Origin: Chaetoderma sp. LZ-2023a | Lineage: Eukaryota; Mollusca; Caudofoveata; Chaetodermatida; Chaetodermatidae | Length of the DNA: 64,000 nt | Direction: 5' to 3' | NCBI GenBank assembly: GCA_034401795.1 | Contig: CM067374.1 | Coordinates: 97,932,860-97,996,859, forward strand | Shown here: positions 5,799-63,660 of the stretch, piece by piece | Numbering within the stretch: the stretch's first letter is position 1 | Layout: each line of letters opens with the position of its first letter | Program-made: the position numbers and the translations under genes | Notes under the pieces: model-generated | Seen by the model: the letters and a program-made list of their open reading frames with translations, nothing else | Database searches by the model: none | What the model was told of the DNA's origin: nothing

Positions 5799-6034
5799 TT
5801 AACCCTTTAACCCTCAAATTTGTTGAAGAAAATTTTAATTTTCTCATAGATGTTAATTTGCAGACCAAGAGAATACTGTTTTTGAAAATTTACCAATAGA
5901 ATGACTGTCTCCGTTATCGAACCAGTCATTTCAGTAATAAATTTTCAAAAATAGTCTTCTCTTAGTCTGCAAATGAGCATTTCTCAAGACCATTGCAGAA
6001 GTCATGTTTGGCTAATATGAGTGTTAAACGGTTA
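5799..6034. mobile_element. MITE TTAA-A copy
   Basis: Runs from TTAACCCTTTAA to TTAAACGGTTAA. Its right half is the start of the 229-bp duplication described separately. Confidence 0.8.
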
Positions 6035-6388
6035 ACATTCAAACCAGCCAAAAACAGCTTCTGCAGTGCCCTCGAGATATATCCATTTGGATACCAAGAG
6101 AATACTATTTTTGAAAATTTACAACTGGAATGTCTGGTTCGGTTATCGAGCCATTCATTTCAGTAATAAATTTTCAAAAATAGTCTTCTCTTAGTCTGCA
6201 AATGAGCATTTCTCAAGACCATTGCAGAAGTCATGTTTGGCTAATATGAGTGTTAAACGGTTAACATTCAAACCAGCCAAAAACAGCTTCTGCAGTGCCC
6301 TCGAGATATATCCATTTGGATACCAAGAGAATACTATTTTTGAAAATTTACAACTGGAATGTCTGGTTCGGTTATCGAGCCATTCATT
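5931..6388. repeat. exact-looking 229-bp tandem duplication
   Basis: 5931-6159 and 6160-6388 read the same base for base as far as I can compare by eye. Each unit spans the right half of one TTAA-A MITE and the left half of the next, so the duplication is younger than both insertions. Identity this high amid diverged copies means a recent event or an assembly duplication. Confidence 0.85.
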
Positions 6389-6560
6389 CCAGTTGTTAAT
6401 TTTCAAAAATAGTCTTCACTTAGTCTGCAAATGAGCATTTCTCAAGACCACTGCAGAGGCCGTTTTTTTGGCTGATATAAATGGACGACACTCAAACCAG
6501 CCAAAAATGGCTTCTGCAGTGCCCTCGAGACATGTCCATTTGCAGACCAAGAGAAGAGTA
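6389..6560. mobile_element. MITE TTAA-A right half plus the start of another copy
   Basis: Continues the hairpin of the second duplicate (CAGTTGTTAATTTTC to TTTTTTTGGCTGATAT), then a fragment with CAGCCAAAAATGGCTTCTGC and GTCCATTTGCAGACC. Confidence 0.6.
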
Positions 6561-24776: not shown

Positions 24777-24977
24777 ATGTTTCATGGTCATAAACATGGA
24801 ATGAATAGCATACGACAGATCACGATACATGTCAACCCAGGACAGATACCAGTGCTTACAGTTGATCAGCCACTATATGCTATCACCAAAAAGATTCAGT
24901 GGAAATGGCCAGATGAGTATGGAGAAAGACAATATGTTGTACTGATGGGGCCCCTCCACATAGAAATGGCCATGTTG
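24777..24977 (+). pseudogene. fragment of an uncharacterised repeat-associated protein, cut by the assembly gap
   Basis: About 67 residues are readable before the N block: HGMNSIRQITIHVNPGQIPV, then PVLTVDQPLYAITKKIQW, then GERQYVVLMGPLHIEMAML. The segment V-x-T-x-D-Q-P-L-Y-A followed by G-x-LHIEM is one I associate, from memory, with a multi-copy protein of unknown function in cnidarian, mollusc and fish genomes. I cannot verify that here. The real exon start is unknown because the frame is only preceded by AT-rich DNA, and its end is lost in the gap. Confidence 0.55.
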
Positions 24978-25477
24978 NNNNNNNNNNNNNNNNNNNNNNN
25001 NNNNNNNNNNNNNNNNNNNNNNNNNNNNNNNNNNNNNNNNNNNNNNNNNNNNNNNNNNNNNNNNNNNNNNNNNNNNNNNNNNNNNNNNNNNNNNNNNNNN
25101 NNNNNNNNNNNNNNNNNNNNNNNNNNNNNNNNNNNNNNNNNNNNNNNNNNNNNNNNNNNNNNNNNNNNNNNNNNNNNNNNNNNNNNNNNNNNNNNNNNNN
25201 NNNNNNNNNNNNNNNNNNNNNNNNNNNNNNNNNNNNNNNNNNNNNNNNNNNNNNNNNNNNNNNNNNNNNNNNNNNNNNNNNNNNNNNNNNNNNNNNNNNN
25301 NNNNNNNNNNNNNNNNNNNNNNNNNNNNNNNNNNNNNNNNNNNNNNNNNNNNNNNNNNNNNNNNNNNNNNNNNNNNNNNNNNNNNNNNNNNNNNNNNNNN
25401 NNNNNNNNNNNNNNNNNNNNNNNNNNNNNNNNNNNNNNNNNNNNNNNNNNNNNNNNNNNNNNNNNNNNNNNNNNNNN
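24978..25477. other. assembly gap, exactly 500 N
   Basis: Uniform N run of a round number, so its true size is unknown. A repeat-associated ORF lies on the left and a LINE 3' end on the right; order and distance across it are not established by the sequence. Confidence 0.99.
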
Positions 25478-25917
25478 ACTGCAGTCTTGTATTTTGTCAA
25501 TCTTCACCTACACTGTTGGATAGGTTAGAAAAGTTACAAAAGCGAGCTGCTAGAGTAATATTAGATATGCCTTATAGAACACCATCAGCGCCATTATATA
25601 AAACACTAAATTGGACAACTTTAACTAAAAGAATGATGATTAAAACAGGCATTATGACATACAAGGCGAGAAATGGGCTTGCTCCCAGCTACATAAAAGA
25701 CATGTTCATTTCAATCGAGGATGCACACACTAGGAATTTGCGCTCAAAGACATTTAATCATCTACAAGTTCCCAAGATTAAAACAGATTATGGAAAGAAA
25801 AGCTTTACACATGCAGCCCCACAACTGTGGAATTCTCTACCCTCAACTGTTACACAGTCTACCACTTTAATGTCTTTCAAGTCCAATCTTCAGGAATATA
25901 TAAATCAAATGTAATGA
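25478..25917 (+). pseudogene. 3' end of a CR1/L2-like LINE reverse-transcriptase ORF (5' part in the gap)
   Basis: The frame is open from just after the gap (SPTLLDRLEKLQKRAAR) to TAA at about 25915. Motifs typical of the C-terminal end of CR1/L2/RTE-like LINE proteins are clear: LEKLQKRAARVILD, then W-x-x-L-x-x-R, then YKARNGLAPSYI, then APQLWNSLPS near the end. In non-LTR elements this segment follows the reverse-transcriptase domain. The protein end looks intact; nothing upstream can be judged. Confidence 0.85.
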
Positions 25918-31254: not shown

Positions 31255-31700
31255 TATCATACATACTCTGAACGCTACACTGCTTCACTAGAGGGAGCCA
31301 TGGCTAAATATCCCATGGCCAATTCATTTCTAGCTAAACTCAGCGGTTTTAGCTATGCCCATCTCTAGCTAAGCTCCACCCACACCTCGCTCGTGTTGGG
31401 ATCGATCGATCTCTGAACACCCTGACTATCAATTTAAAAAAAACTACACAGGTAAGTTGTTGAATATTTTGAAACTAATTTAACTGGGTGCTGTTGCTGC
31501 CTAAGGCAGCAACAGCTCCCAGTCAAATTAGTTTCAAGATATTCAACAGCATGTTTATTAAATAGCAAAGAATTACAAAGACATACAATTCATACTTGTC
31601 AGACTATTTGAGATTTGATGAAGGTGTATATGGAACCCTTTGTGATGTAATGATTGTGACATCATGATTGTGACATCATACAAGGTCAGATGATGGCTGG
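31255..31700. mobile_element. Fold-back element FB-B copy, inverted, intact hairpin
   Basis: GCCCATCTCTAGCTAAGCTC, GGGATCGATCGATCTC, then a hairpin of about 90 bp (GTTGAATATTTTGAAACTAA ... GCTGTTGCTGCCTAAGGCAG ... complement). It ends with TGTGACATCATG repeats. Confidence 0.8.
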
Positions 31701-38886: not shown

Positions 38887-39088
38887 TTAACCTTCGAAAT
38901 TATTCAAGAAAATTTAAATTTTTTCATAGCAAATGTCTATTTGCAGACCAAGAGAAGACTATTTTTGAAAATTTACCACTGAAATGACTGGCTCGGTTAT
39001 CACTCCAATTGTAAATTTTAAAAAATAGTCTTCATCTCAAGACCACTGCTGAAGCCGTTTTTTGCTGATATGACGGCTAAAGGGTTAT
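38887..39088. mobile_element. MITE TTAA-A copy, one arm shortened
   Basis: TTTAACCTTCGAAATTATTC through GAATGAC-like palindrome remnants to GGCTAAAGGGTTA. Confidence 0.65.
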
Positions 39089-39329
39089 AACCCAGCCAAA
39101 AATTATATCTGCGGTAGTCTTATCAGGTGTACAGCGGTAAGGTTAAAAAAAATTCTCCAACCTGAAAATGGCAGTTACGTCACAAGAAACATTGTGAGAA
39201 AACAGCGTCATATGGTCAGATATTTGAGTTCATTATAAATATATATATATATAATCTGAAAACAACCAAACTAGATATACTGATGACCTTCTAGTAGTAA
39301 AACTGTCAGCATTATGGCTGCACATCTAT

Positions 39330-41195
39330 CAGTGGCCAAAGTTAAGACCACACCAAACTACGCCGGGAGCGCAATATTACTCTGCGCCACATTAGCGAAC
39401 GCTTAAAAGATCTTCCTATTCAACAGGCAGACTCCCTAGCAGATAAAATCACTGCCATGGATGACTGTCACAAAATGTTTCGGGCAGCCCGAGCCCTGAG
39501 AGTTAATGACTACACACCACCACTCACTGTACACAACTCTGAAGGACACTTTATCGGGACTGATCACGGAAAAGCTGAGGCGATCCGAGAATGGTTCAAG
39601 GAACAGCTCACTGACAACGATGATGAGCCCTTGCACCCATTCTCAGGAGACCCCAGGTCATTACTAACACCAATTAAGAGAAGGCACTTAAAGCCTTGAA
39701 AAATGGACGTGCATCTGGACCTGATGGCATGAGCAATGAACTATTCACATATGCAAGTGACATTATCTCAAAACCAATCACGCACCTAATCAATTCAGTT
39801 TTTATGCACCACCTTCCCATCGACGCTGTAGGCCAAGGCACCCGTATCGCACTACCAAAGCCCAAGAAGCCACCTGGGCCCCCAGCCAATCTGTGGCCCA
39901 TTGTGCTCCTCAACAGCATACGGAAAATCCTATCCAATGTTACTCTATGCCGTATCCGAGACAAGATCGATTACTTCACTGGATCATATCAAAGTGGCTT
40001 TAAATGTGGACGCAGCTGCGCAGACATTGTATGGGCTCAACATATGCCTGTGTCGGTAGTCATGTCCGAACACTGGGACTTCCACAAAATGGGCATTGAC
40101 ATGTTATGAGCCTTCGACACAATTAAACACTCAAAAGATCCTAGATGTACTACGCCAGACCAGTTGGAATGAAGATGAGCTATGACTAGTGAGACTACTG
40201 CTTGCAGACACCAAGCTGAGAGTACGAGTCAAGTCAGTGAAGTCTGTAGAGTTTGAGACATCAATCGGCTCCCCACAGGGAGATGGTCTATCTCCGGTGC
40301 TTTTCACCTGCTACCTTGCTGCCGCATTGAAATCTGTGCGGGAAAGTTCCACAAGACCAAACCCCCCAGTGTCAACACTGGGCATGCCACTAGAGATGGA
40401 ATATGCCGACGATGTGGACTTCATAGACGAGGAAAAGAAACCCCCTGACGAACTTCTCCCAATACCTGCAAGCAAACTAAAAATTGAGAATCTCTTTATG
40501 AATGAATCCAAAACAGAGTTCATCCACATATACCTATCGACAAAGCATGAAACTATAGAAAATGACGACCCACTTTGTGGTGGCGAACCCGGGAGGAAAA
40601 GTAAAATCCTGGGCTCACTGCTTTGCAGTACTGCTGACATTTCTGCATGCTGCGTCATGGGGAACATAGCTTTCCAGTCTTTCTGGAAGCTATAGATTCG
40701 TAGATCAAAGATGCCCTTGATAAAGAGGCTATGTTTATACAATTCAACCTGCATATCCTTGATGCTGTATAACTGTAACAGCTGGGCAGCTTTAGACAAA
40801 CTCGAAGCCTGCCACCGCAAACACATACGCACCATCACTAGACACCGATGGCCAGAGAGCATAATTTCCAAGGATGCACCATACAAGATGTGTAATACGT
40901 CGCCGCTGTCTGTAAAAGTCGCCCAGCAAAGATGGTTCATGTTTGGCCATGTGCTAAGGATGCCAGAAGAGACACCAGCACAGAGAGCCTTGGAATTCGC
41001 CCTACTCGGAGCCAGCAAATACAAAGCCAGGAGAGGACGTCATTGCATAAATATGTTAAGCGTGCTATGAGGTGACCTCAAGAAAGCAGGACTTGGTACA
41101 CTCAAGTCAAGAATGGACCTTAGGAAGCTAAGGATTTCGGCTGAGGACAAGACACAGTGGGCAAAAGTGAAGAAGGACTGATTGCAGCTGTAGGA
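39330..41195 (+). pseudogene. non-LTR retrotransposon reverse transcriptase, degraded
   Basis: Consecutive frames give a linear series of motifs: ASGPDGMSNELF (39705 on), LPKPKKPPGPPANLWPIVLL (39850), SGFKCGRSCADIVWAQ (39990), AFDTIKHS (40110), GSPQGDGLSPVLFTCYLA (40267), MEYADDVDFIDEE (40396), WKL ending 40695, then a C-terminal LEACHRKHIRTITRHRWPE and QQRWFMFGHVLRMPEETPA (to 41070). This is the reverse transcriptase and downstream region of a LINE of broad RTE/R1-Jockey type; the YADD metal-binding box is intact. Stops (after DML near 40107, in the 40140-40190 stretch and at 40695) and frame changes near 39695 and 40700 disable it. No endonuclease domain is seen, so the copy is 5'-truncated. 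Confidence 0.88.
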
Positions 41196-42436: not shown

Positions 42437-42680
42437 AGCCATCGATGTTGAATATTTTGAAACTAATTTGACTGGGTGCTGTTGCTGCCATAGGCAGCAA
42501 CAGCACCCAGTCAAATTAGTTTCAAAATATTCAACAGCTTATCTGTATAGCTTTCTGGAAATTGAGTCAGGGAGTTCAGGGATCGATCGATCCCAACACG
42601 AGCGAGGTGTGGGTGGAGCGTAGCTAGAGATGGGCGGGGCATAGCTAAAAATGGAACGGTCCATTGATTATGATGTCTGA
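42437..42680. mobile_element. Fold-back element FB-B with near-perfect hairpin
   Basis: 42448-42535 is an almost perfect palindrome (TTGAATATTTTGAAACTAAT ... GGGTGCTGTTGCTGCCATAG ... exact complement). It is followed by GGGATCGATCGATCCC, GTGTGGGTGGAGC and GGGCGGGGCATAGC. This copy and the one at 42060 lie in opposite orientation. Confidence 0.85.
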
Positions 42681-43565: not shown

Positions 43566-44217
43566 ATGAATGGACGGTCTAGAGCCTATCACAATAGAAC
43601 CCTTTCAGCCAAATTTGGTCAAAATCGTTCAAAATGGTACGGAGCAGCAATTTGACGTCTGGTAAATATTTTAAAATAAAATCTAAGATTTTCACCCAAA
43701 ATGTTTGATAAATCAAAATTCTGAGTGGATGTTCTAGAGCCTATCATTATAGGATCCTTTCACCCGCAATTGGTTGAAATCTGTCAAGTTGGTAAGAAAA
43801 AGCGATTTGATAGTTTCCGGTAATTTGACAATTTTCTTATTAAATCTATGATTTTAACCCCAAAATTTACAGATCAAAATACTGAATGGCTGTTATAGAG
43901 CCAAACACAATAGGATTGTTCTAACCAAATCTAGTTGAAATCAATTAAACTATTGACAATTTCCGGCAAATTTTTCATAAGATCTAAGATTTTGATCCAA
44001 AAATTTGACAAATTAAATTTATGATTGGAATATCTTGAGCCTATCACCAAAGGATCCTTTCAGATCAATTTGGTTGAAATCAGTCAAACTGGTAATGAGA
44101 ATAAGTAATTTGATAATTTCCAGTAAATTTTTAATAAAATCTTATATTTTCAGCCAAAATGATAACAAATGAAAATTCTGAATGGAGGTTCTAGAGACTA
44201 TGACCATAGAATCCTTT
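43566..44217. repeat. degenerate tandem array, about 135-145-bp unit, five copies
   Basis: GAGCCTATCACAATAGAACC-like phrases recur near 43580, 43738, 43897, 44037 and 44190, each with TTTCAGCCAAATTTGGT-like and AATTTGACAATTTCCGG-like text. The last unit is cut at about 44217, where the GC-rich element starts. Confidence 0.82.
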
Positions 44218-44244
44218 CAGCAATGCAGTAGTAGAATATTTAGG

Positions 44245-44575
44245 GCTGCTAGAACAGAACGTGGTGGGAGCCACTGATCCGCAGCTACAGGAGGGGAGAT
44301 GGGCTGTCAGAACAGTAATTATGCACATACATTCCACACATTCCAACTTGGGATTGTGTCCCGAGAAAATATGCGATGCACCTACGCACACAAAATAGCT
44401 AATGCTTAACACACTATCTCGCTGTTGTTATCTGTTAGATGTAATATGCCAGTTATCAGTAGGTCTGCGGCTAATAACTAGGACATAACAGGATATCAGA
44501 ACAGAGGGTGGTGGGAGCCGCGGATCGCCGATCGGCCGCTACAGGAGGGAGGTGGGCTGTCAGAACAGAGGGACG
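44245..44575. repeat. pair of about 75-bp direct repeats at the element's left edge
   Basis: 44245-44316 and 44498-44572 share GTGGTGGGAGCC, GCTACAGGAGGG and TGGGCTGTCAGAACAG in the same order. They are the outermost recognisable sequence of the GC-rich block and may be a duplicated terminal segment. Confidence 0.75.
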
Positions 44576-44740
44576 GCTGGCTGCGATGTGTTTTACAATG
44601 TAGCGCCCTCCCCAACCCCTCTGTGGGCCCCCATTCATTGTTCAGACCATGCCAGGCATAAGTTTATTCACACCAGGCAAGTACAAAACTGCCACTACAA
44701 ACTGTAGTACACTACAGGTTTACTCATAATATTCCGAACC

Positions 44741-45009
44741 ATGGATACACGCAATCACAATAAGTTCACAGATGAGGAGGTGTATTACAACGTAGGGCCC
44801 ACCACCCTGACAGCGATCCATCCCTTCCAGCACCATACAGGAAGCTCAAAGCAGAGACACGCCTGCACCCATACAGGAAGCCCAAAGCAGAGACACACCT
44901 GCACAAGAATCTCACAGATGAGGCACTCGACCTCCTCATCGACTGCCTCATTGATGATATTACTCTAAAAAATCAAAAATCTAGCAACACATTTATTTTG
45001 GTTCGATAG
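44741..45009 (+). pseudogene. small element ORF 1 (one frameshift)
   Basis: ATG at 44741 opens MDTRNHNKFTDEEVYYNVGP. A frame change near 44815-44830 is needed to continue into RKLKAETRLHPYRKPKAETH and NLTDEALDLLIDCLIDDITL, ending TAG at 45009. A 36-bp unit (CCATACAGGAAGCYCAAAGC...) is duplicated at 44841-44905, giving the repeated RK.KAET. About 90 residues. Acidic helices, no domain recognised. It converges tail to tail on the minus-strand ORF that follows. Confidence 0.55.
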
Positions 45010-45312
45010 CATTATCCATATTAATGCTGTGGATCGTTAGCAGATGATCTAAATACTGTCTTAGCTCTGTCATTGCCATTGCTGTCAGTGGATAGCGTCT
45101 AACCCCTAACTCGGTGCATGGTGGGGTTTTTTCGGCGAGTACTTCGTCTACTACTATTGTGAATGATAGGTCAGGATACGCTCTCCAGGACCCAAGCGAT
45201 CTATTTGCATAGTCGTCCAGGTCATATAATGATTGTGCCACTATTTCCCACCGTGCCACACAGCCTACACCATGCAAGTAACTCCATAGTTCTTCGGGGT
45301 AACCGATGATTG
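44993..45312 (-). pseudogene. element ORF 2
   Basis: Minus-strand frame of about 105 codons without a good ATG. Readable pieces: SIIGYPEELWSYLHGVGCVA, YDLDDYANRSLGSWRAYPDL, LAEKTPPCTELGVRRYPLTA, MTELRQYLDHL. It looks like a genuine globular protein rather than a shadow (balanced composition, aromatic residues), but no family is recognised. The upstream boundary is a TGA just before SII, so the 5' part may be lost. Its stop overlaps the end of ORF 1 on the opposite strand. Confidence 0.55.
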
Positions 45313-45688
45313 AGTTTCAGATTCAGTTAGCTTGATTGATTGAGAGATTCTGTCACCTATACAGTTGCGTTTCTCTAATAGGGCAACACCTGGTGGTGGG
45401 GGCCCGTTCTGAAACACTTATTTTATAACTAATGATGATGATGATGATAGACATAATGCTGCTGCTGATGATGATGATGATGATGATGATGATAGACATA
45501 ATGTTGGATCACAAATGTATGCCCAGCCTCATGTCTCCGTATTAAACAAACTGAATCAAACAAGCACGTAGTCACGACCAGTGTCACATCGGCATGAGGG
45601 GATTACCCACATGCCCTTCCAGCTGCCTTGGTCACAGTATCTGGTGCCGTAACGGCTGCAGACAATCACGTCCAGACCTTTCTACACC
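45313..45688. repeat. (GAT)n microsatellites inside the element
   Basis: GAT runs at about 45428-45454 and 45461-45491, separated by ATAGACATAATGCTGCTGC. The rest of the stretch has no long frame and may be the decayed end of ORF 3. Confidence 0.7.
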
Positions 45689-45871
45689 CTAGAAGCGGCA
45701 GACAGACTCAATTTCCTCATGTGGGTGAAATCGGTTGTAGATATTTTTCTGCAGATGGTCGCGGAAGGGATTATACTGGGGCTCATCTCGCAAGTGGGCC
45801 CACTTGGCATCTAATATCATGGGTGTCTGTGATGCAGCCACCACAGGTATGAGCAGTAGTACAACCAGCAT
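45689..45871 (-). CDS. element ORF 3: small secreted or membrane-anchored protein
   Basis: 60 residues from a good ATG at 45871 (minus). The N-terminus MLVVLLLIPVVAASQTP is a convincing signal peptide or signal anchor, followed by a polar tail (LDAKWAHLRDEPQYNPF, NRFHPHEEIESVCRF). The ATG lies one base after the TAG of ORF 4, read on the same strand, so both could be read from one transcript. No family recognised. It may continue in another frame past 45689, where coding-like text goes on. Confidence 0.65.
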   Translation of the reverse strand: MLVVLLLIPVVAASQTPMILDAKWAHLRDEPQYNPFRDHLQKNIYNRFHPHEEIESVCRF

Positions 45872-45872
45872 C

Positions 45873-46775
45873 CTAGATATGGCGGGTTAAACCGGACAAG
45901 GTGAACCCCTCGAGAAATATCTGTGTCATATCGAGTCCTTTGCCGTCCTCGATGCCGATCTTCATCCCATCTGGGGCAGGTCTTAGCTGCTTCACTTTAC
46001 CACCAGCTAGAAGCCGCAGCTCTAGCACAATATGGGTTGTTTGCGGACTTGTGAGCCAGGCACGCTCGAGCAACTTCACTGAGCCCTTCGCCTTCGAGGA
46101 GTGTGACACACCCTCAACTCATAAGACACCCTCCTGAATATTGATAGCTTCCTCTGGTCCATCAAAGGGCCGACACAGCAGGAGCTTTCCTCCAGTGACC
46201 CCAATCCTATGACCCACTACAACTAGGGTTGTGCCCTGTCCTATATAGGTCAGGAAAGATGTCCCCCGGTTATAAAGCTTCCGGACCGTGCCATCTTTCT
46301 TGACACCACCAGGTCCAGCGCGATACCACACTGCGCTCATTTCGAAGACTACCTGCAGCTGTTTCGCCAGGGTCAACACCACACCATCATTTGACATCGG
46401 TGGGGCATACTTCACAGTCGGCTCTAAGACATAAAAGCTGAGGTCAGCGTCCAAGGTGTTAACATCCTTAACCTTGTCTAGTGACTGATCTATCAGGGGG
46501 GGGTGAAGGACGAACTTCTTATTCAGGAAGTCATAGCGGAACACTATTTTGTCCCCATCCCTCTCTCGACCCATATATTCCTTCGAGACATCCTTTAGGT
46601 CAGTGAGCAGCTCTACACCATCTCCACCGATGGGATGGAGGGAGAATGTCTTGGATTCTGCTCCATATTGGAGGACAAAAGACTTGCCATCGCTTTCCTT
46701 AACCTTGGCAGCATCAACATCGTACACATCCACAAGATCAGCCAGACCGGTCGAGTGAGCAAATATAGGCTCCAT
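45873..46775 (-). pseudogene. element ORF 4: about 300-residue protein with one premature TGA
   Basis: The longest gene of the block: ATG at 46775 (minus), open for 218 codons (MEPIFAHSTGLADLVDVYDV; SFVLQYGAESKTFSLHPIGG; KFVLHPPLIDQSLDKVKDVN; AVWYRAGPGGVKKDGTVRKL; LVVVGHRIGVTGGKLLLCRP), TGA at 46119-46121, then the same frame continues without loss for 81 codons (SSKAKGSVKLLERAWLTSPQ; RLLAGGKVKQLRPAPDGMKI) to TAG at 45873. Beta-rich, with many short hydrophobic strands and Gly turns; two similar segments (V.D.KSFVLQYG and KIVFRYDFLNKKFVLHP) hint at an internal repeat. Function unknown; a structural role is speculation. Only one disabling site is visible. Confidence 0.7.
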
Positions 46776-46829
46776 TGTATGTCTATATAGGGGGTTTAAA
46801 TGGAGTGAATAGCCATGCCGATTGTCTGA
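46776..46829. promoter_or_regulatory. divergent intergenic region with TATATAG and GTTTAAA
   Basis: Lies between ORF 4 (minus) and ORF 5 (plus). CTATATAGGGGGTTTAAATG combines a TATA-like box and a TTTAAA word. The other divergent gap in the element (51956-51991) has the same pair in the same order. Candidate bidirectional promoter; inference only. Confidence 0.4.
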
Positions 46830-47198
46830 TTGCTACTCCAAAATGTGGAGAATGTCATCAGAACATCCCTAGTTGGGAGACGTGCAGTTCAGTATTGCAG
46901 AGAATGGGTTGTCTTCAAGGTAGCTCAGCATTCCACCACATATGTACACGCCGATGTGTTACATCTGCCACCGAGAAGTACCTACCACAGCTCACTGACT
47001 GAACTACAGTTAGACGTGATAGAATATCTGCCAGGAGCCACCAGCAACCTGTGGAAAGTGATCAGCCCCAACACGTTCACCCACATAAATCACCTGTTTG
47101 ACAGCTCAACCATTAGTCTATATGCCAGCATGGATGGTCTGTCGGATGCCCAATTAGAGTTTATGCTGCTGCTACTTATTGACCTATCCCCATCATAA
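46830..47198 (+). CDS. element ORF 5
   Basis: A frame of about 122 residues; no clear ATG at the start (it opens TTG), ending TAA at 47198. Readable text: SLVGRRAVQYCREWVVFKVA, HADVLHLPPRSTYHSSLTEL, LDVIEYLPGATSNLWKVISP and a C-terminal helix YASMDGLSDAQLEFMLLLLI. Mixed alpha/beta with a leucine-rich end. No family recognised. Undamaged apart from the uncertain start. Confidence 0.55.
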   Translation: MLLQNVENVIRTSLVGRRAVQYCREWVVFKVAQHSTTYVHADVLHLPPRSTYHSSLTELQLDVIEYLPGATSNLWKVISPNTFTHINHLFDSSTISLYASMDGLSDAQLEFMLLLLIDLSPS

Positions 47199-47230
47199 CA
47201 TCATATCAGACCTATCAAGCACTCACCGAG

Positions 47231-47497
47231 ATGTTGAAAAAGGAGATAGAGGAGCAGCCACACACCTTCTCCGGGATGATAAATATAGCAGTACAGGAAA
47301 TGCGTTGTCGACAAGACGAGCGACTGGAGCGGGTGAGCTGGTATGAACAGAACGCCAGAAAGGCAAGGAGACGAAAGGACTACAACTCTGTCCAAGAATG
47401 GGAGAGCCTCATCCGGCAGGAGGAGGGTATCGTAGGGCCAAACTTGTATGATTTCTCCGATGATGAGTGTGATGAGTCTATAGAAATCTTGCAGTGA
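47231..47497 (+). CDS. element ORF 6a: charged helical protein
   Basis: 88 residues from ATG at 47231 to TGA at 47497: MLKKEIEEQPHTFSGMINIA, MRCRQDERLERVSWYEQNAR, KARRRKDYNSVQEWESLIRQ, DFSDDECDESIEI. Strongly charged, predicted alpha-helical, with an acidic end. The next frame begins within the last codons (ORF 6b), so 6a and 6b may have been one protein split by a frameshift near 47485. Confidence 0.55.
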   Translation: MLKKEIEEQPHTFSGMINIAVQEMRCRQDERLERVSWYEQNARKARRRKDYNSVQEWESLIRQEEGIVGPNLYDFSDDECDESIEILQ

Positions 47498-47744
47498 GAA
47501 GAGGAGAAAGCATAAATCCAAATTCCACCAATGGCGGGCATACTATCAGAGTGACAAGGTGAAGTTCCAGATGTCATGGCTGCAAAAGCAACTGGCCCCT
47601 GACATTATGCTGGATGACGGGTGTTTGAGGGAGGTATGTCTCCACACCAACAAGCTTGTTCGGTTCACCAGGCTCTCCAAGATGAATCCCACAATGACTC
47701 ATCAACAGATCCTACAGGTGATGGCACAAGAGTTTAAGAACTAG
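47486..47744 (+). pseudogene. element ORF 6b
   Basis: Frame opening after a TAG with SEKRRKHKSKFHQWRAYYQS, then DKVKFQMSWLQKQLAPDIML, DDGCLREVCLHTNKLVRFTR and THQQILQVMAQEFKN, ending TAG at 47744. No ATG until within VKFQM. Best read as the C-terminal half of ORF 6a after a one-base shift, giving about 170 residues in total. Function unknown. Confidence 0.5.
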
Positions 47745-47750
47745 GTATAC

Positions 47751-48275
47751 CATGGCTAAATCTGAGTGGTGAAAGTAGCCTGAACTATATCCCGCATTAG
47801 CACCTGAGGAGGGTGGTACAGTACATGGCTGGCGACTCCAACAGATTGACACCATCAGACAGAATCTTGGTCATGAGATAGAAAAGTACAGCAGAACATG
47901 CAGGCGATATTAAACACTCTACAATAGTCTAGCATGCACAACCACAGCTGCGGGTGTGATTGGAGCCAGTGCTGGTGTGGCCGCCGTTGCCGTTGCCACC
48001 CTCACTACAGGGGTGGGTGCTATAGTCGCTATCCCACTGGATGGTGTGACCCTTGCCGCTATTGTCCTGGCCACCCGCTTGGCGGTTGGACAGCGTTAGA
48101 TCACCAGGAAGCTGGAGAAGCATGCTAAGTATGTAAAACTGGCACAGAGCAGCCTATGGGCTTATCGACGAGTCTGTCAGTAAAGCTCTCGAGGATGGGC
48201 AGGTCAGTGATGAAGAGTACCACCATATATTGAAGCTCCAAACCCTGTACCGCAGAGAAACCAAAAGTGCGCCAG
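47751..48275 (+). pseudogene. element ORF 7: two-helix membrane protein, several stops
   Basis: ATG at 47751, four in-frame stops and one frameshift near 48155. Ordered text: PELYPALAPEEGGTVHGWRL; LQQIDTIRQNLGHEIEKYSR; a hydrophobic hairpin GVIGASAGVAAVAVATLTTG plus VGAIVAIPLDGVTLAAIVLA; ITRKLEKHAKYVKLAQSSL; VSKALEDGQVSDEEYHHILK. The order amphipathic helix, glycine-rich transmembrane pair, KKH-type helix, then S-K-A-L-x-D-G-x-(IV)-S-D-E-E-(FY) matches my memory of a multi-copy uncharacterised protein in cnidarians and other invertebrates. That recollection could not be checked. The conserved C-terminal motif survives despite the breaks. Confidence 0.65.
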
Positions 48276-48370
48276 CAATACCTCAAAGGCTCCAGCGGGT
48301 GGGTCCCCATCGAAGATCTCTATGGTGTCAAATAGTAGATTGCATCCGCGGCTGGAACAGAGGATTTAAG

Positions 48371-49537
48371 ATGACTACTATAGACGGCCTTCCCGACGAA
48401 CCTCACAACAATCAACCAGAGCCAACTGCCCCTTTTGGGTACACTCTGGACCCGCTCGAGAGCGGGACTACGGGGTCTCCTGGATGACATACTGGACCTA
48501 ACCCTGATCTCCATTACGGTCGATGGGTGGTCTCACATCAGCTTCTTCAATCCGCGACCACTGACCAACCTCGCAATCACCATCAAAGATGCGAAGAAAG
48601 CTCTTACCAGGATGGCAGGCCCGAATCCCTCGTTCTGGAACCAACAGCTGAACTTTGCCGTGTGGTGTGCCACAGCAGGATGCGGCGTCGGCGCGGGTTT
48701 GCTGCACTCCTATTCTGGTACCCCGAAGCTGTGCTCATTGCCAGCTCTCTCAGATTCCATGTCTACTACACGGTGAGACGAATCTGCCATGTGCTGCGCG
48801 CAAGCCTGCCTGATACGAATGATTTTGATCTGCAGCCTGTCGGCACCACTAGCTACAGCCTCTCAGCAGCCAGTAGACTCCAGCGAGAGTTCAACACCCC
48901 CTCAGACTATCGTTTCCATGGTGGACACCAGCGGTCTAGGCGTTATGTATGGCGACCAGAGACGAGACTACTCAGGCTTCCCCTATAAACACCCCGAAAA
49001 ATCAGCCGTCGGACGACAGTGACATTCTCATTCAATCCAGACTCAGAGACCGGGGTACTGGTGCAGATTATGCATATCACCGGAATCAGGCAGGACCATC
49101 CAGATGCGTGGAAATACTTTGTCCCACACACAACCTTAGGGCTCACACCAACAGGGATCGTTCGAATCAACCAGTCCTTAGAAGCATTATGTTATTGTCT
49201 CCTGACAGCCCAGACCAAGCTGTGCCACTCCATAGATGGGGTGAGTGGAAAAGAGGTGCAGGCCATGTTCAGCAGTCTTGTTGAGGACATGATCATTGTT
49301 GCAGATCTCAGTAGCCTCATCGCCAAGTTCCAGCAAGCCTTACAGAAAGCCCGTCGTAAGCTCGACTTCGCTATATCGCCACACCTACAACTTATTCTGA
49401 GCAATATGATCATGAATGTCAAGAATCTGAAGATTAGGGGCTACAATAACATGATAGTCGAGGGGATTCCCCAGGTGTGCACTTTGGGTTTAACACTGAT
49501 ATCAACTCCACCATGCATGTCATCCCGACGCCCATGA
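48371..49537 (+). pseudogene. element ORF 8: about 380-residue protein in several frames
   Basis: ATG at 48371 (MTTIDGLPDEPHNNQPEPTA; FGYTLDPLES). A shift near 48470 leads to LLDDILDLTLISITVDGWSH, ISFFNPRPLTNLAITIKDAK, PSFWNQQLNFAVWCATAGCG. A shift near 48690 leads to RFHVYYTVRRICHVLRASLP. Further shifts near 48930 and 49020 lead to VRINQSLEALCYCLLTAQTK, SSLIAKFQQALQKARRKLDF and KNLKIRGYNNMIVEG. These blocks again resemble, from memory, a long uncharacterised protein found in many cnidarian scaffolds beside ORF 7-like genes. A membrane segment is not obvious. The most diagnostic piece for a database search is 48480-48690. Confidence 0.65.
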
Positions 49538-49539
49538 CA

Positions 49540-49690
49540 CATAGGCCCCCCCATGGTCTCCTACGAGGGCCAGTGCTACCGTCGTTCCGACTGTCGCTCC
49601 GACCACTGGAACAGCAGGAGTGCGGCGACCCGTGCTGACACCCACCACCCCGCCAGGCAGTGCTAGCAGGACGATATCCCTACGAGTGGT
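49540..49690. other. element interior, convergent gene ends
   Basis: Lies between the end of plus-strand ORF 8 and minus-strand ORF 9. Pro/Thr/Ala/Arg-rich text in either direction (minus: TGRRTPAVPVVGATVGTTVA) may be the low-complexity tail of either gene. Confidence 0.4.
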
Positions 49691-49691
49691 G

Positions 49692-50048
49692 TCAGGTCTG
49701 GCTATTGCTGTGCTTATCACCAGTCTTCTCCGCCACTAATAGATCCTGCTCGTAGAGCAATAGATCAACCTGACTCTCTTCCGGTGCGGGAGTCATGGCA
49801 AATGAGATTGCCTGAACTAGCTTGGCCTGCCCGATGGCCCCAAAACACGCTGTCTGCATACACACCCAAGGACTGTATGGTTCGGTGGTACAGCCTTTTT
49901 CCAGCTTGTCATAGTGCAGAGCCTTATTCAACTCAGAGTCGGGGGATGCCATGGATGCCTGCAACTGCTGGAACACGTCCGACAGATACTCCCAATCCTT
50001 GTAGAATCCCTTAGTACGCAGGAGCTGCTCTACGATACTGCCTCCCAT
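49692..50048 (-). CDS. element ORF 9
   Basis: 118 residues from ATG at 50048 (minus): MGGSIVEQLLRTKGFYKDWE, YLSDVFQQLQASMASPDSEL, ALHYDKLEKGCTTEPYSPWV, CFGAIGQAKLVQAISFAMTP, QVDLLLYEQDLLVAEKTG. Helical N-terminus, short Ala/Gly-rich middle, then an acidic end. The ATG lies 6 bp after the stop of ORF 10 on the same strand, an operon-like spacing. No break seen within it. Family not recognised. Confidence 0.62.
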   Translation of the reverse strand: MGGSIVEQLLRTKGFYKDWEYLSDVFQQLQASMASPDSELNKALHYDKLEKGCTTEPYSPWVCMQTACFGAIGQAKLVQAISFAMTPAPEESQVDLLLYEQDLLVAEKTGDKHSNSQT

Positions 50049-50054
50049 AATGAG

Positions 50055-50200
50055 CTATTCGACGAAGCCGATCTGCCCCTTACCAAACCCCAAGTAGAGT
50101 TTCACAGCTGTCAGCTCCTCTGCTACCTCAGTGTTAGAGAGATGGGCGAGCTCATCTGGTGACTTCTTATAGTCCTTCAATATGGCAGAAGACGTCGTAG
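50055..50200 (-). CDS. element ORF 10: short ORF upstream of ORF 9
   Basis: Minus-strand frame of about 48 codons ending TAG at 50055: TTSSAILKDYKKSPDELAHL, SNTEVAEELTAVKLYLGFGK, GQIGFVE. No ATG within the open part, so it is 5'-truncated or starts at a non-ATG codon. Helical and acidic. It belongs with ORF 9 by spacing. Confidence 0.5.
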
Positions 50201-50242
50201 TGCCTAGTACATAGTGCTAGTAGGTCTATGGTTTAAGCCGCT

Positions 50243-50482
50243 ATGTATAGTGATATGGATATTCCCATGTACCAATCTAAGCAGCTGACAGATGCAGACT
50301 GGTTATAGCTGCTTAGCGCTCTCAAGGTAGAACGTACACGTTTAAATGTGTTGTATACTCAGGGCTTAAATGCTGACATCAATGGTACAGATTGTAAAGC
50401 AACTCCCGGAGAGCCAGGCGAGTCTCCAGAAGGTGGAGAAGCTGTTCAAAAGCAAGACCCAGAAGCTACTGACACAGGCTAA
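50243..50482 (+). pseudogene. element ORF 11 (one in-frame TAG)
   Basis: ATG at 50243: MYSDMDIPMYQSKQLTDADW, L, TAG, LLSALKVERTRLNVLYTQGL, then a low-complexity acidic tail (PGEPGESPEGGEA) to TAA at 50482, 80 codons. It overlaps the start of ORF 12 in another frame. The tail could be spurious; the first 40 codons look more protein-like. Preceded by GTTTAAGCC, a weaker version of the TTTAAA words seen elsewhere in the element. Confidence 0.45.
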
Positions 50483-50766
50483 GCCCCTGGCCATTCACCT
50501 CGCCAGTAACATGACCGCGAATGTGGCCATGGTAAAGATGACAGGTGGTTATTCCTGCCACTGGAGCCACTGTCCTTGCTACAGTGGCAAGTATGGTTGT
50601 CGACCACTGTCTAGGAATAACACATCCCATCCCAAAGATCGCCATCGGTGGCGCCTCCTATACTGTTGCCGCCGAGATCATGGGCGAACGCATCCCTCTA
50701 ATGGAAGTCGCGGTTCTAGGGCTAGCGACTAGTGCTATGGCCGAGATCATCGTGACCTATGTCTAG
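50370..50766 (+). pseudogene. element ORF 12: hydrophobic membrane protein (one frameshift)
   Basis: ATG at 50370 gives QLPESQASLQKVEKLFKSKT and PLAIHLASNMTANVAMVKMT. A shift near 50540 continues VVIPATGATVLATVASMVVD, HCLGITHPIPKIAIGGASYT, VAAEIMGERIPLMEVAVLGL, TSAMAEIIVTYV to TAG at 50766. Two or three transmembrane segments separated by a short loop with HPIPK. About 130 residues in the original frame. Family not recognised. Confidence 0.58.
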
Positions 50767-50772
50767 CTTTAA

Positions 50773-51317
50773 GATGCTATATATAATGGAAGCTTGGCAG
50801 GTCCATGACACAACAGTAGCCTATGACGCATGGCGGGCTATGTCAGAGTCGGTAGCGCATAGTCGACCACACACACTGACGATTTCCAATTCCCAGAAAT
50901 GGCGGTTAGCCCACAAGGCATGCCCATGCAGGGAGGGCCAGTATCCTGAGCACTGCTACCTATCGAGAGATCTGAGGTACCATCCCAGCCAGAGATCTCA
51001 TCGGAAACACTGACACGGTAGGACAATCAGCCATCAACAAGGCCAAGACTGTATACAAGGGGTTGGGCATCAAAGATAGGGCAGTGATGCGAGGCATGCT
51101 CGGAGTCGATGAGGTTATGGCCGAGTCCTACGCACAGGACCTGGTTAAGGATCTCCTGAAACCACGGAGCTCATTCCAACAAGATGGGGAGAATCTCGAG
51201 GTAGGCACCATCGGAATGAGCCATATCACGGTGGATGGCCAAGCGAATGCAACAGCAAAGCTCCAACTACCCGAGGTGAAGTCGGGATTTTTTGGCCTGC
51301 CGTTTAAGATCACATAA
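50773..51317 (+). pseudogene. element ORF 13: broken, C-terminal 113 residues intact
   Basis: A possible start at 50773 (MLYIMEAWQVHDTTVAYDAW) runs to 51013 in one frame. In another frame the segment from 50976 (after a TGA) reads TIPARDLIGNTDTVGQSAIN, KGLGIKDRAVMRGMLGVDEV, SYAQDLVKDLLKPRSSFQQD, NLEVGTIGMSHITVDGQANA and ends at TAA 51317. The C-terminal part looks globular and well preserved. The N-terminal frame may be a different small gene. Confidence 0.55.
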
Positions 51318-51430
51318 TAAGCATGGCTGCTCGAACTGCATCATAAGGATACTCGAGGTGCTAGACACTGCGGGCACTTGATTTTATGCTTGACGCCTCT
51401 ATCGTATCCTTCATATCTGCCGGCGGTACA

Positions 51431-51562
51431 ATGCTACCCACACAGCAGGCAAAAGAGCTGGTACAGGAAGTACTGCCTTTTAATCTCCCAGATATAGATG
51501 AGGCTACAGCTGAAGAGCTGCTGACCATCATTCACGCGCATGTCAGCACCATACAGCAGTAA
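51431..51562 (+). CDS. element ORF 14: 43-residue protein
   Basis: ATG at 51431 to TAA 51560-51562: MLPTQQAKELVQEVLPFNLP, DIDEATAEELLTIIHAHVST, IQQ. A neat acidic helical miniprotein, undamaged. ORF 15 follows 5 bp later. Small ORFs of this size fit the compact layout but could be chance. Confidence 0.45.
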   Translation: MLPTQQAKELVQEVLPFNLPDIDEATAEELLTIIHAHVSTIQQ

Positions 51563-51567
51563 ACCAG

Positions 51568-51726
51568 ATGATCCCGGTGGTGCTGATCATTGCCCCGCCA
51601 GGACACAGGAAAAACATCTTGCTGCAGGCAACCCTAGCCTTCTGGAGAGCTAGAATTACAGGACTCTTAGTGGGTGCCCTGGGGAGATCTAGTGACCTGC
51701 TCTGGGCGCTGTCAAGCTTCCGGTAG
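51568..51726 (+). CDS. element ORF 15: small ORF, possibly truncated
   Basis: ATG at 51568: MIPVVLIIAPPGHRKNILLQ, ATLAFWRARITGLLVGALGR, 52 residues to TAG 51726. A hydrophobic beta strand followed by APPGHRKN is reminiscent of the start of a P-loop (hhhh-x-P-x-G-x-G-K), with His-Arg in place of the usual Gly-Lys-Ser/Thr; so this could be the remnant of an ATPase N-terminus. That is a guess from seven residues. Its end overlaps ORF 16 on the other strand. Confidence 0.35.
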   Translation: MIPVVLIIAPPGHRKNILLQATLAFWRARITGLLVGALGRSSDLLWALSSFR

Positions 51727-51955
51727 AGTATCTGAGTAAGAGTTCCTTTGTAATGCGGGCCGGTGTGGTCTCCTCTATGGCAGTCAGTATCCCTGCATCA
51801 GACAGAGGTGGGACCTTGGCTCACTCGTGGGTAATGTTGATGTCATGAAGTAGTCGTCGGACCCTGTCAATCGGCAGCTGTATTGGTTTCTTCTTGGAGG
51901 GGTGCAATAGTTTCTGCCCTCCAAAGACGATCTGCTGGAGAACTTTACCAAACAT
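51689..51955 (-). pseudogene. element ORF 16 (one premature TGA)
   Basis: ATG at 51955 (minus): MFGKVLQQIVFGGQKLLHPS, KKKPIQLPIDRVRRLLHDIN, ITHE, TGA, then AKVPPLSDAGILTAIEETTP, ARITKELLLRYSTGSLTAPR and TAG at 51689, 89 codons in one frame. Basic first half. Divergent from ORF 17 with a 36-bp spacer. No family recognised. Confidence 0.55.
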
Positions 51956-51991
51956 CGCCAATTAAAAACCTGTATATACAGACGTTTAAAC
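51956..51991. promoter_or_regulatory. 36-bp divergent intergenic region
   Basis: Between the ATGs of ORF 16 (minus) and ORF 17 (plus): CTGTATATACAGACGTTTAA followed by AC and the ATG. CTGTATATACAG is a perfect 12-bp palindrome. The TATATA plus GTTTAAA arrangement repeats that at 46776-46829. Confidence 0.45.
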
Positions 51992-52462
51992 ATGCAGCAG
52001 TATGTACAGCATCCAGATGGGGCAGTTGAACCTGCGGCCTCGCACCACACTGATCCTCGGAAGGACTGTCTGACAGTCACTCAACCTAGTATCCATGATG
52101 TGAACCCTTTATCCACAGTGGGGAAGTTCATCGACTTCGCCCTCTTGGGACAGATCCATGAGATTAGGAGCATGATGCGCAAGTTCAAGCTCAAGAGCAC
52201 AGAGGCGCAGAAGGTAGAGCTCCCGCAGGTGGTGAGCATGTGGGAGATTATGCAGGGCAACAACACCCTGGACACCACCTATGTGAATGATGAGTACTGG
52301 GTCCTGGCTCCACTGGCTCGTGGACCTTCCTACTATGTGAAGGGGAAAGGGTACTATGCCGTCAGACGTAATGAAGGCTTCACAGAATTTGACTTACAGC
52401 CAGACGTAGAAATACCTGTCGCGGTGCCACTCTTCTCCCTCCTCGAGAACACACACACATGA
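51992..52462 (+). CDS. element ORF 17: intact 156-residue protein
   Basis: ATG at 51992 to TGA 52462 without a break, the best-preserved gene of the block. Text: MQQYVQHPDGAVEPAASHHT, VGKFIDFALLGQIHEIRSMM, RKFKLKSTEAQKVELPQVVS, NNTLDTTYVNDEYWVLAPLA, YYVKGKGYYAVRRNEGFTEF, DVEIPVAVPLFSLLENTHT. Disordered N-terminus, then a helix, then beta-rich C-terminal half with many Tyr. No family recognised. Its TGA overlaps the ATG of ORF 18 (ATGA). Confidence 0.68.
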   Translation: MQQYVQHPDGAVEPAASHHTDPRKDCLTVTQPSIHDVNPLSTVGKFIDFALLGQIHEIRSMMRKFKLKSTEAQKVELPQVVSMWEIMQGNNTLDTTYVNDEYWVLAPLARGPSYYVKGKGYYAVRRNEGFTEFDLQPDVEIPVAVPLFSLLENTHT

Positions 52463-52537
52463 ACCTGGCCTTGATGCAGGAAAAGCTGTTCCTCCGGGTG
52501 TATACCGTGCTCGCCCACCCTAGGCCAATGGAGATGA
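52459..52537 (+). pseudogene. element ORF 18: start of a gene truncated at the right edge
   Basis: ATGA overlap with ORF 17. It reads MNLALMQEKLFLRVYTVLAH, PRPMEMT, then runs into the FB-B repeat at about 52532. A larger gene probably followed in the intact element, so the right part of the element is missing here. Confidence 0.5.
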
Positions 52538-52740
52538 CTTTACGATTTAATAAACACTGTTGAATATTTTGAAAAAGATTTGACTGGATGCTGTTGCTGC
52601 CATAGGCTTACCTGTATAGCTTTCCGGAAATTGATAGTCTGGGAGGTCAGGGATCGATTGATCCCAACATGAGCGAGATGTGGGTGGAGCCTAACTAGAG
52701 ATGGGCGAGGCATAGCTCACACTGGAAAAGTCCATTACTT
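52538..52740. mobile_element. Fold-back element FB-B, right half
   Basis: Begins within the repeat (TTTAATAAACACTGTTGAAT), keeps a GCTGTTGCTGCCATAGG core, lacks the complementary arm and ends ATGGGCGAGGCATAGC. Its left part is not found at the other side of the GC-rich block, so the junction is not a simple insertion. Confidence 0.65.
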
Positions 52741-53056: not shown

Positions 53057-53270
53057 CTGTCCGCCTGCTGAATTTCTGCAGACTATGTTTTCCATGGATG
53101 TTAACTGCTGTACCTGCTGAATATTTTGAAAACGATTTGACTGAAAGTTGTTGGTGGCTATGCCACCAACAACTTTCAGTCAAATTTTTTTCAAAATATC
53201 AAGCATGTCAAGAGTTATTGCCCATTGACATTATCGTCTGGTGGCTTGCAGTGCTCAGTCAGTCAGTTAA
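53053..53270. mobile_element. MITE TTAA-C copy abutting TTAA-A
   Basis: TTAACTGTCCGCCTGCTGAA to GCTCAGTCAGTCAGTTAA; hairpin AAAGTTGTTGGTGGCTATGC. Confidence 0.83.
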
Positions 53271-60778: not shown

Positions 60779-61325
60779 TCACCAATCAGCGTGATTAATT
60801 CCAATTGGGTCCATGCTATGTAGCTGGTGGATCCAGAATTTCTCGCGTTCCTTACGGATAGACGTTGCTTCCGTGGAATCAGGATCGCGATGGAACACCT
60901 CAATGATTCTGTAGTTGACTGAAGAGGTGTTGTGATTAGGGAGATTAAAGTGAATGGCTACTGGTGTGTCTTTTTTGTTCTTAATGCCCCTAAGATGTTC
61001 TTTAATACGTATTTGGAATTCTCGTTTAGTTTCACCAATGTATTGTTTAGAACATGTGTTACACGTGATTAAATAAACCACATTCGTTGTTACAGAATGT
61101 TTTTGTTTTGGTATGATAGTTAAGCCCAGTGTGTGAGCATTTGAATGTGCGTTTTTTGTCCATTTGTTGACAAAATGCGCAATTGTGTTAGTTGCATGGA
61201 ATGACAGGGTTGGTGATGGTTCTGCCTTGAATGCCAAAAGTTTTTGCATCCATAAATTTGGCCATTATTAGTGTGTCTTTGAAGGAGGGGTTCCTTCTGT
61301 GACCAAATAATGGCGGTTCCTGGAA
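60779..61325 (-). pseudogene. Penelope-like element, C-terminal GIY-YIG endonuclease region
   Basis: Minus-strand frame of 156 codons ending at 60779, with VVYLITCNTCSKQYIGETKR (GIY-YIG core with the CxxC-like pair), then FQIRIKEHLRGIKNKKDTPV, AIHFNLPNHN and a terminal RKEREKFWIHQLHSMDPIGI. Just upstream, after a frame change near 61250, PPLFGHRRNPSFKDTLMAKF resembles the connector after the reverse transcriptase. GIY-YIG C-terminal to a telomerase-like reverse transcriptase is the signature of Penelope-like elements. The reverse transcriptase itself is missing: the copy is 5'-truncated near 61330. Confidence 0.85.
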
Positions 61326-62738: not shown

Positions 62739-63660
62739 CTAAAGAAAGAAGCCGCTGCGCTCTGGTCTTTCAAATAAAAAGAGGTAAAAGTAATCGGATT
62801 TCCATCCTGCAACTTGCATAACTTCGTCTACAGAAGAGCCAGCGAAAAGAGCGAAAGAGGTAGCCATCCCTCTAACATCATGAGCCTTAATGTGAGAGAT
62901 TGATTTGCTCAGGAGAAGCAATCTCGTAGCAGAGTTGAATGGTGTCACAAATCCATCTAGCAATAGATGCTTTAGAGACTGGTCTGGCTACCCCTTCCGC
63001 ATACGGAACCCAGAAATGGGACGGATCGGATCTCTTAGAATCAGTACGATGCATATAAGCTTTAAGAGCTCTGACTGGACACCAAAATCTGTCAGACGGA
63101 GAAAAAGAAGATAAAGATTTTAAAATAATCGGCTTAGCTGGATAACGGTTTGATTGCGTTTTTGATAAAAAAATCCCTTCTAGGATATAATACCAAACCG
63201 TCCCCAGCTTCAATAAATCGATCCTTTTCAGCGGAAAAAGCATGGATCTCAGATCGTCTTCTAGCAGAAGCAGAAGCCACTAGAAAAACAGTCTTAAACG
63301 TTAAAAGCTTTAAGCTAATCGAAGAGATGGGTTCAAAATGATGACCTGCCAAAACCTGAAGAACCAAAGCCAAGTTCCAGGAAGGCAAAGGTTTAGCAAT
63401 AGGAGGACGAATATTACCTAAACCTCTGATGAAACCATTAAGAACCTTAGTATCTTTAACCTCAGCATTTAACAAACAAGGAAGAGAAGATGCTAAAGAA
63501 AATCTATATCCTCTAACAGTGTTAGCAGTCAGATGAAGAGAATCGAACAGATAGGATAAAAAATCTAACACTTGGGAAATAGAAACAGAATCGGGCACGA
63601 GATCATGATTTGAACACCATTCTCCAAAATCTTAAGTCAACCCTTGTAAACTCTTCGGGT
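62739..63660 (-). pseudogene. DIRS-type tyrosine recombinase, frameshifted
   Basis: Three overlapping minus frames join into one recombinase. 63598-63134: SISQVLDFLSYLFDSLHLTA, NTVRGYRFSLAS, PSWNLALVLQVLAGHHFEPI, ARRRSEIHAFSAEKD (first catalytic Arg). 63243-62887: FWCPVRALKAYMHRTDSKRS, FWVPYAEGVARPVSKASIAR. 62963-62739: SISHIKAHDVRGMATSFALF (HxxR box), VMQVAGWKSDYFYLFLFERP (Trp and candidate nucleophilic Tyr). Frame changes near 63200 and 62920, and a stop near 63630 between STRRVYKG and the core, disable it. All catalytic positions are still readable, so the copy is younger than the one at 13.4-14.1 kb. Confidence 0.85.

Follow-up and report, generated by a model that had tools for sequence, protein, structure and literature searches.

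What kind of mobile element is a block that is dense in genes, repeated throughout its genome and devoid of any recognizable replication gene? Such a block lies in a 64,000-nucleotide stretch of contig CM067374.1 (positions 97,932,860 to 97,996,859, forward strand) of the mollusc Chaetoderma sp. LZ-2023a, referred to here as the window. An initial annotation, made from the sequence alone, proposed a widespread but nameless element outside the Polintons. The results presented here indicate instead that the block is very probably what remains of a Maverick/Polinton element after decay and 3' truncation, because other copies carry a convergent rve-type integrase and type-B polymerase, long inverted termini with (AGT)2 ends and target-site duplications of 5 base pairs (bp). 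The family is new but its kind is known, and the window holds an ordinary decayed Maverick/Polinton copy.

The replicative genes are found in other copies of the element. In the copy on C6, examined as separate pieces, the block runs on to the right of the part kept in the window into integrase and polymerase pieces between paired termini. An open reading frame (ORF) of this copy, L055:1314-1655, matches the type-B polymerase family DNA_pol_B_2 (PF03175, expectation value [E] 8.6e-5) as well as a DNA polymerase family of PHROG (E 2.4e-5). The rve integrase is recognizable in L061:3-980 (minus strand; PF00665, E 2.1e-6), where the integrase gene has a longer natural open frame; this frame was retrieved through the C6-copy integrase piece. 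In one sequence comparison with the PDB a retroviral integrase came up, but with an E of 0.99 that carries no weight. The C6-copy piece has at least 150 places in the genome, itself included, and long open integrase frames survive in some genomic copies. The assignment of both genes is supported by their linkage, which was examined between the best 150 integrase places and the best 150 polymerase places, a comparison in which absent pairs are uninformative. At least 28 integrase-polymerase pairs, C6 included, lie no more than 4 kb apart, against a chance expectation of 0.07; all 28 are convergent, and 26 are spaced by 0.9-1.3 kb. Among the best 40 places of a piece from the window block itself (48989-49534), an integrase on the same strand lies within 12 kb at no fewer than seven and a polymerase on the opposite strand at no fewer than six, making at least nine places in all, C6 included. 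The initial annotation had itself named matches to Polinton or adintovirus core genes as evidence against its reading, and the parts of the element that the window lacks carry such matches in other copies. Its statement that there is no replication gene holds for the window copy, not for the element. Core genes are absent from the window block because this copy is truncated.

Collecting copies and aligning their flanks, the check that had been recommended for this locus, yielded both termini and target duplications. The terminal inverted repeats are 345 bp long, since 15 of 34 matches that start at the edge stop at query positions 572-574, and both inverted ends occur within one stretch, L017. 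With the window's terminus left out, 22 of 27 distinct termini start with AGTAGTAG. Six pairs of ends were compared. Perfect 5-bp duplications flank four of them: TGGGT at C13 (ends 6.4 kb apart), CCAGG at C8 (16.7 kb), AATGA at C14 (7.2 kb) and CATGG at C6 (1779902-1797322; 17.4 kb). The C11 pair, 13.6 kb apart, matches at four of five bases (CATTG/CATCG), and the sixth pair has no duplication. Three characters expected of Mavericks/Polintons are thus present: inverted termini that are several hundred bp long (345 bp) and end in AGT-type motifs, target duplications of 5-6 bp (here 5 bp) and, in two of the six end pairs (16.7 and 17.4 kb), a unit size of 15-20 kb. Helitrons are not known to have inverted terminal repeats or target duplications, and were ruled out by the presence of both. 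Two right ends on C15 (L058 and L059, at C15:6903225 and C15:6914794) lie 11.57 kb apart with flanks that are identical in the bases shown; judged by these flanks, they are a duplication rather than two insertions.

The block was described correctly as GC-rich, dense in ORFs and set in AT-rich repeat DNA. Its GC content (44227-52507) is 0.502, compared with 0.365 in the rest of the window, calculated without 24901-25520 (a run of N), 39001-41000 (another GC-rich block) and 52508-52600. It contains 16 stop-to-stop frames of at least 100 amino acids (aa) and four of at least 150 aa, the longest being 237 aa. In 300 dinucleotide shuffles of the block, the 16 frames were reached by one, the four long frames by none and 237 aa by two. 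The edges required correction, from 44218 to 44227 on the left and from 52537 to about 52507 on the right. With query 44000-44600, 21 of 45 non-window matches start exactly at 44227 (query position 228); 34 start at query positions 213-230, 11 further in and none earlier. On the right, in comparisons of the window with 16 copies taken one by one, each as a stretch of up to 9.9 kb, the alignments of five copies stop at 52505-52507, those of the other 11 earlier and none beyond.

Copies are dispersed through the animal's own genome, an assembly of 2.44 Gb with chromosome-sized contigs. The piece 48989-49534 occurs at 39 or more other genomic places at 90-93% identity, as determined from the best 40 places (window included) of 3301 first-look candidates scored. 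Stretches of both frames singled out by the initial annotation (47751-48275 and 48371-49537) also align with other genomic copies. The view of the block as a multi-gene, multi-copy, decayed mobile element that is cut on its right side is upheld. Matches of identical score on the small contigs C285/C17 (about 99.4 Mb), C2257/C2258 and C586/C709 suggest haplotype duplicates in the assembly; such duplicates would make copy counts too high.

Sequence is missing from the window copy at two places. Among the 16 copies, all 11 that match the window to the left and to the right of 51629 have extra sequence at this point, amounting to 1.0-1.35 kb in nine of them, 0.45 kb in L019 and 0.25 kb in L021. 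Everything to the right of 52507, including the integrase, the polymerase and the right terminal repeat, is missing. From these alignments, the window copy is read as having an internal deletion of about 1.1 kb in the region of an ATPase-like gene, in addition to a 3' truncation. Two ORFs of other copies represent this gene. L022:2639-3106 (minus strand), which runs into the 51629 deletion, has a weak match to Pox_A32 (E 0.011), and L015:2278-2823 (minus strand) matches P-loop/AAA families (best E 0.0018), with every match under the cut-off. The matches are in keeping with a packaging ATPase, although they are no proof of one.

The weakness of the ATPase matches is one of several points that weigh against the assignment to Mavericks/Polintons. 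The polymerase and integrase matches score below the curated Pfam cut-offs (22.0 against 25.8 and 28.3 against 32.6 bits, respectively). Nine of ten ORF pieces from other copies have no Pfam match to a polymerase or integrase, among them a polymerase-like piece with a DTDS motif and both integrase pieces of L055. The C12 end pair, only 0.7 kb apart, is the one that lacks a target duplication. Unlike in known Mavericks/Polintons, no penton, protease or Polinton capsid was recognized in the ORFs searched against Pfam, PHROG and PDB. One of 109 ORFs from six copies matched an astrovirus capsid model (E 5.8e-4; the ORF is untraced), and a search of four protein pieces and a degenerate DNA pattern against viral_contigs returned no relative. 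Finally, duplications of 6 bp are given for vertebrate Mavericks in PMC8097293 and for Polintons in PMC10045372 and PMC12747079.

Other searches for structural genes were similarly unproductive. No adenoviral-type cysteine protease was among the 25 of 31 families listed from the Pfam search of the 109 ORFs. Three of these ORFs matched RTX models (best E 0.0048); the RTX and astrovirus matches were not found again among 20 re-scanned ORFs. Sequence comparisons with the PDB gave nothing credible, and two single-sequence folds of window ORFs (predicted local distance difference test scores of 33 and 31) were too poor for use. It is conceivable, at rather long odds, that the family represents a lineage whose particles are built from proteins other than the known double-jelly-roll capsid set, and which lacks the usual protease. 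This reading arises because the non-replicative ORFs searched are unrecognized and because the gene order is unlike that of vertebrate Mavericks.

In other respects the comparison with known systems favors Mavericks/Polintons. The family resembles them in its size of about 17 kb, its inverted termini, which are several hundred bp long and carry the (AGT)2 motif, its duplications within 5-6 bp, its rve-type integrase and type-B polymerase, and its weakly matched packaging-ATPase-like gene. For vertebrate Mavericks, PMC8097293 gives (AGT)2//(ACT)2 as the commonest end motif, with terminal repeats averaging 402 bp and elements averaging 16.9 kb. The 5-bp duplication differs from the 6 bp of vertebrate Mavericks; it was considered as an unusual trait but dropped, since PMC8547959 gives 5-6 bp for mavirus and Maverick/Polinton target duplications. 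The gene order also differs. In vertebrate Mavericks the polymerase and ATPase are placed in one module on one strand (PMC8097293), whereas here the ATPase-like gene and integrase share a strand and the polymerase faces them. Adintoviruses likewise combine a type-B polymerase and an rve integrase in one element; their definition, as given in PMC11071296, includes an OTU-like polymerase domain, a hexon and an integrase C-terminal chromodomain. Ginger DNA transposons share an rve-like transposase and inverted termini with the family. To our knowledge, they have no type-B polymerase. Ginger1 elements are about 2.6-7 kb with 4-bp duplications, and Ginger2 elements have duplications of 4 or 5 bp (PMC2836005 and PMC10045372).

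Could the window copy be a non-autonomous Maverick derivative, mobilized by full-length relatives, rather than a truncated full-length copy? Short copies with two termini and perfect 5-bp duplications do exist at C13 and C14. The window copy, in contrast, lacks a right terminus, giving way to a host repeat beyond about 52507. Its exact deletion at 51629 is found in none of the 11 comparable copies, so this origin is quite unlikely. A widespread, unnamed class of elements without polymerase, integrase or capsid genes is less likely still. It would explain why ten window ORF pieces found nothing convincing in Pfam (best E 0.078) or PHROG (best E 0.046), but it is contradicted by the C6 block, which continues into both replicative genes between its paired termini, and by integrase-polymerase linkage elsewhere in the genome.

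The GC-rich and multigenic nature of the block might also suggest an insertion of a large DNA virus (herpes- or nudivirus-like), bacterial contamination joined by misassembly, or a host gene family. The abundance of copies dispersed over the chromosomes, their defined termini and the unit size of about 17 kb leave these explanations with hardly any probability, as do searches with one piece each that returned no relative in phage records (tblastn) or GTDB prokaryote contigs. None of the phage, viral_contigs and GTDB scans, which together gave no relative outside the animal's own genome, covers animal genomes. The features that the window copy retains are given in Table 1. Two of its frames (47751-48275 and 48371-49537) have products that may resemble multi-copy proteins of cnidarians and molluscs, and the latter is presumably a candidate for a structural protein. 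Scans of the window for Rfam families (gathering threshold) and tRNAs gave no matches.

Table 1. Features of the Maverick/Polinton copy in the window (positions in the window; empty strand cell, not stranded).
Feature	Position	Strand	Basis and remarks
Left half of presumed 5-bp target-site duplication, AATGC	44222..44226		Deduced from duplications of other copies; right partner lost
Left terminal inverted repeat, 345 bp, 5'-AGTAGTAGAATATTTAGGG...	44227..44571		Shared ends in genomic matches; inverted at far end of L017
ORF remnant, 107 aa	44993..45316	-	Without match in Pfam or PHROG up to E 1
Broken gene, pieces 46119-46832 (237 aa) and 45873-46118	45873..46832	-	Common to other copies; 46119-46832 without Pfam match, best PHROG E 0.046
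Overlapping ORF remnants 46830-47198, 47183-47497 and 47484-47744	46830..47744	+	Open frames, comparison with copies; best Pfam E 0.078 (47183-47497) and 0.14 (47484-47744)
Broken gene with hydrophobic stretch	47751..48487	+	265-aa open frame there in L013 (L013:6018-6812, minus strand)
Broken gene, pieces 48384-48776, 48488-48988 and 48989-49537	48371..49537	+	At least 39 other genomic places of 48989-49534; Pfam and PHROG matches all at E 0.19 or above; nothing in phage records or PDB
ORF remnant, 120 aa	49692..50054	-	Open frame
ORF remnants 50370-50766, 50976-51317 and 51365-51562	50370..51562	+	Open frames; codon-position counts
Stub of packaging-ATPase-like gene	51514..51629	+	Remainder deleted at 51629
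ORF, 183 aa	51911..52462	+	The frame is open for longer in L022 (199 aa) and L013 (255 aa)
Break from element into host AT-rich repeat starting near 52551	52508..52560		Alignments stop near 52507

Other repeats and putative mobile elements occur in the window and in the stretch of one copy. A reverse-transcriptase remnant lies at 39678-40695 (plus strand); 40186-40692 matches RVT_1 (E 3.9e-6, below the curated cut-off), and 39678-40106, which is without a match, appears by eye to belong to the same gene. An ORF at 60779-61264 (minus strand) encodes a GIY-YIG nuclease (E 1.8e-8), presumably as in Penelope-like elements. ORF pieces at 62887-63631 (minus strand) resemble by eye a DIRS/Ngaro-type tyrosine recombinase and have no Pfam matches. 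Short AT-rich palindromic repeats of families D1, D2, D4 and D7 (for example, 31457-31556, 42445-42544 and 53114-53213) are numerous in the window, where a single family can have as many as 18 copies, and one adjoins the broken right edge near 52551. A tandem array at 5856-6555 (229-bp unit, 3.1 copies) overlaps these palindromic repeats, and a run of N, which may be an assembly gap, occupies about 24970-25490. The stretch of one Maverick copy contains a nested Tc1/mariner-type transposase ORF of 343 aa (L010:8391-9419, minus strand; HTH_Tnp_Tc3_2 E 4.4e-17, DDE_3 E 8.3e-12).

The history of the family can be approached through its termini. The two termini of single copies differ by Kimura two-parameter distances of 0.050, 0.097 and 0.111 in three copies, and the left termini of 12 copies differ by a mean pairwise p of 0.074 (66 pairs). 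Since divergence within copies is similar to that between copies, the copies were probably nearly identical at insertion, which suggests an amplification burst followed by decay. In most frames the three codon positions have changed to almost the same extent, with no strong coding constraint, as would be expected of mostly neutral decay after insertion. There are hints of constraint in 50976-51317 and 51365-51562, where changes at codon position 2 are most clearly depleted.

By analogy with the known family, the polymerase, which is protein-primed in known Polintons, would copy the element into linear double-stranded DNA. The integrase would insert such linear copies, leaving 5-bp duplications, and the remaining genes may package the DNA or form particles. 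The family would have spread in a burst and then decayed mostly neutrally, while the window copy also lost its entire right half and, in the ATPase region, about 1.1 kb.

These results remove a false lead, in that a seemingly gene-orphan element is a truncated Maverick, and indicate that such blocks are best judged against full-length copies from the same genome. They also document a multi-copy Maverick family in a genome of 2.4 Gb.

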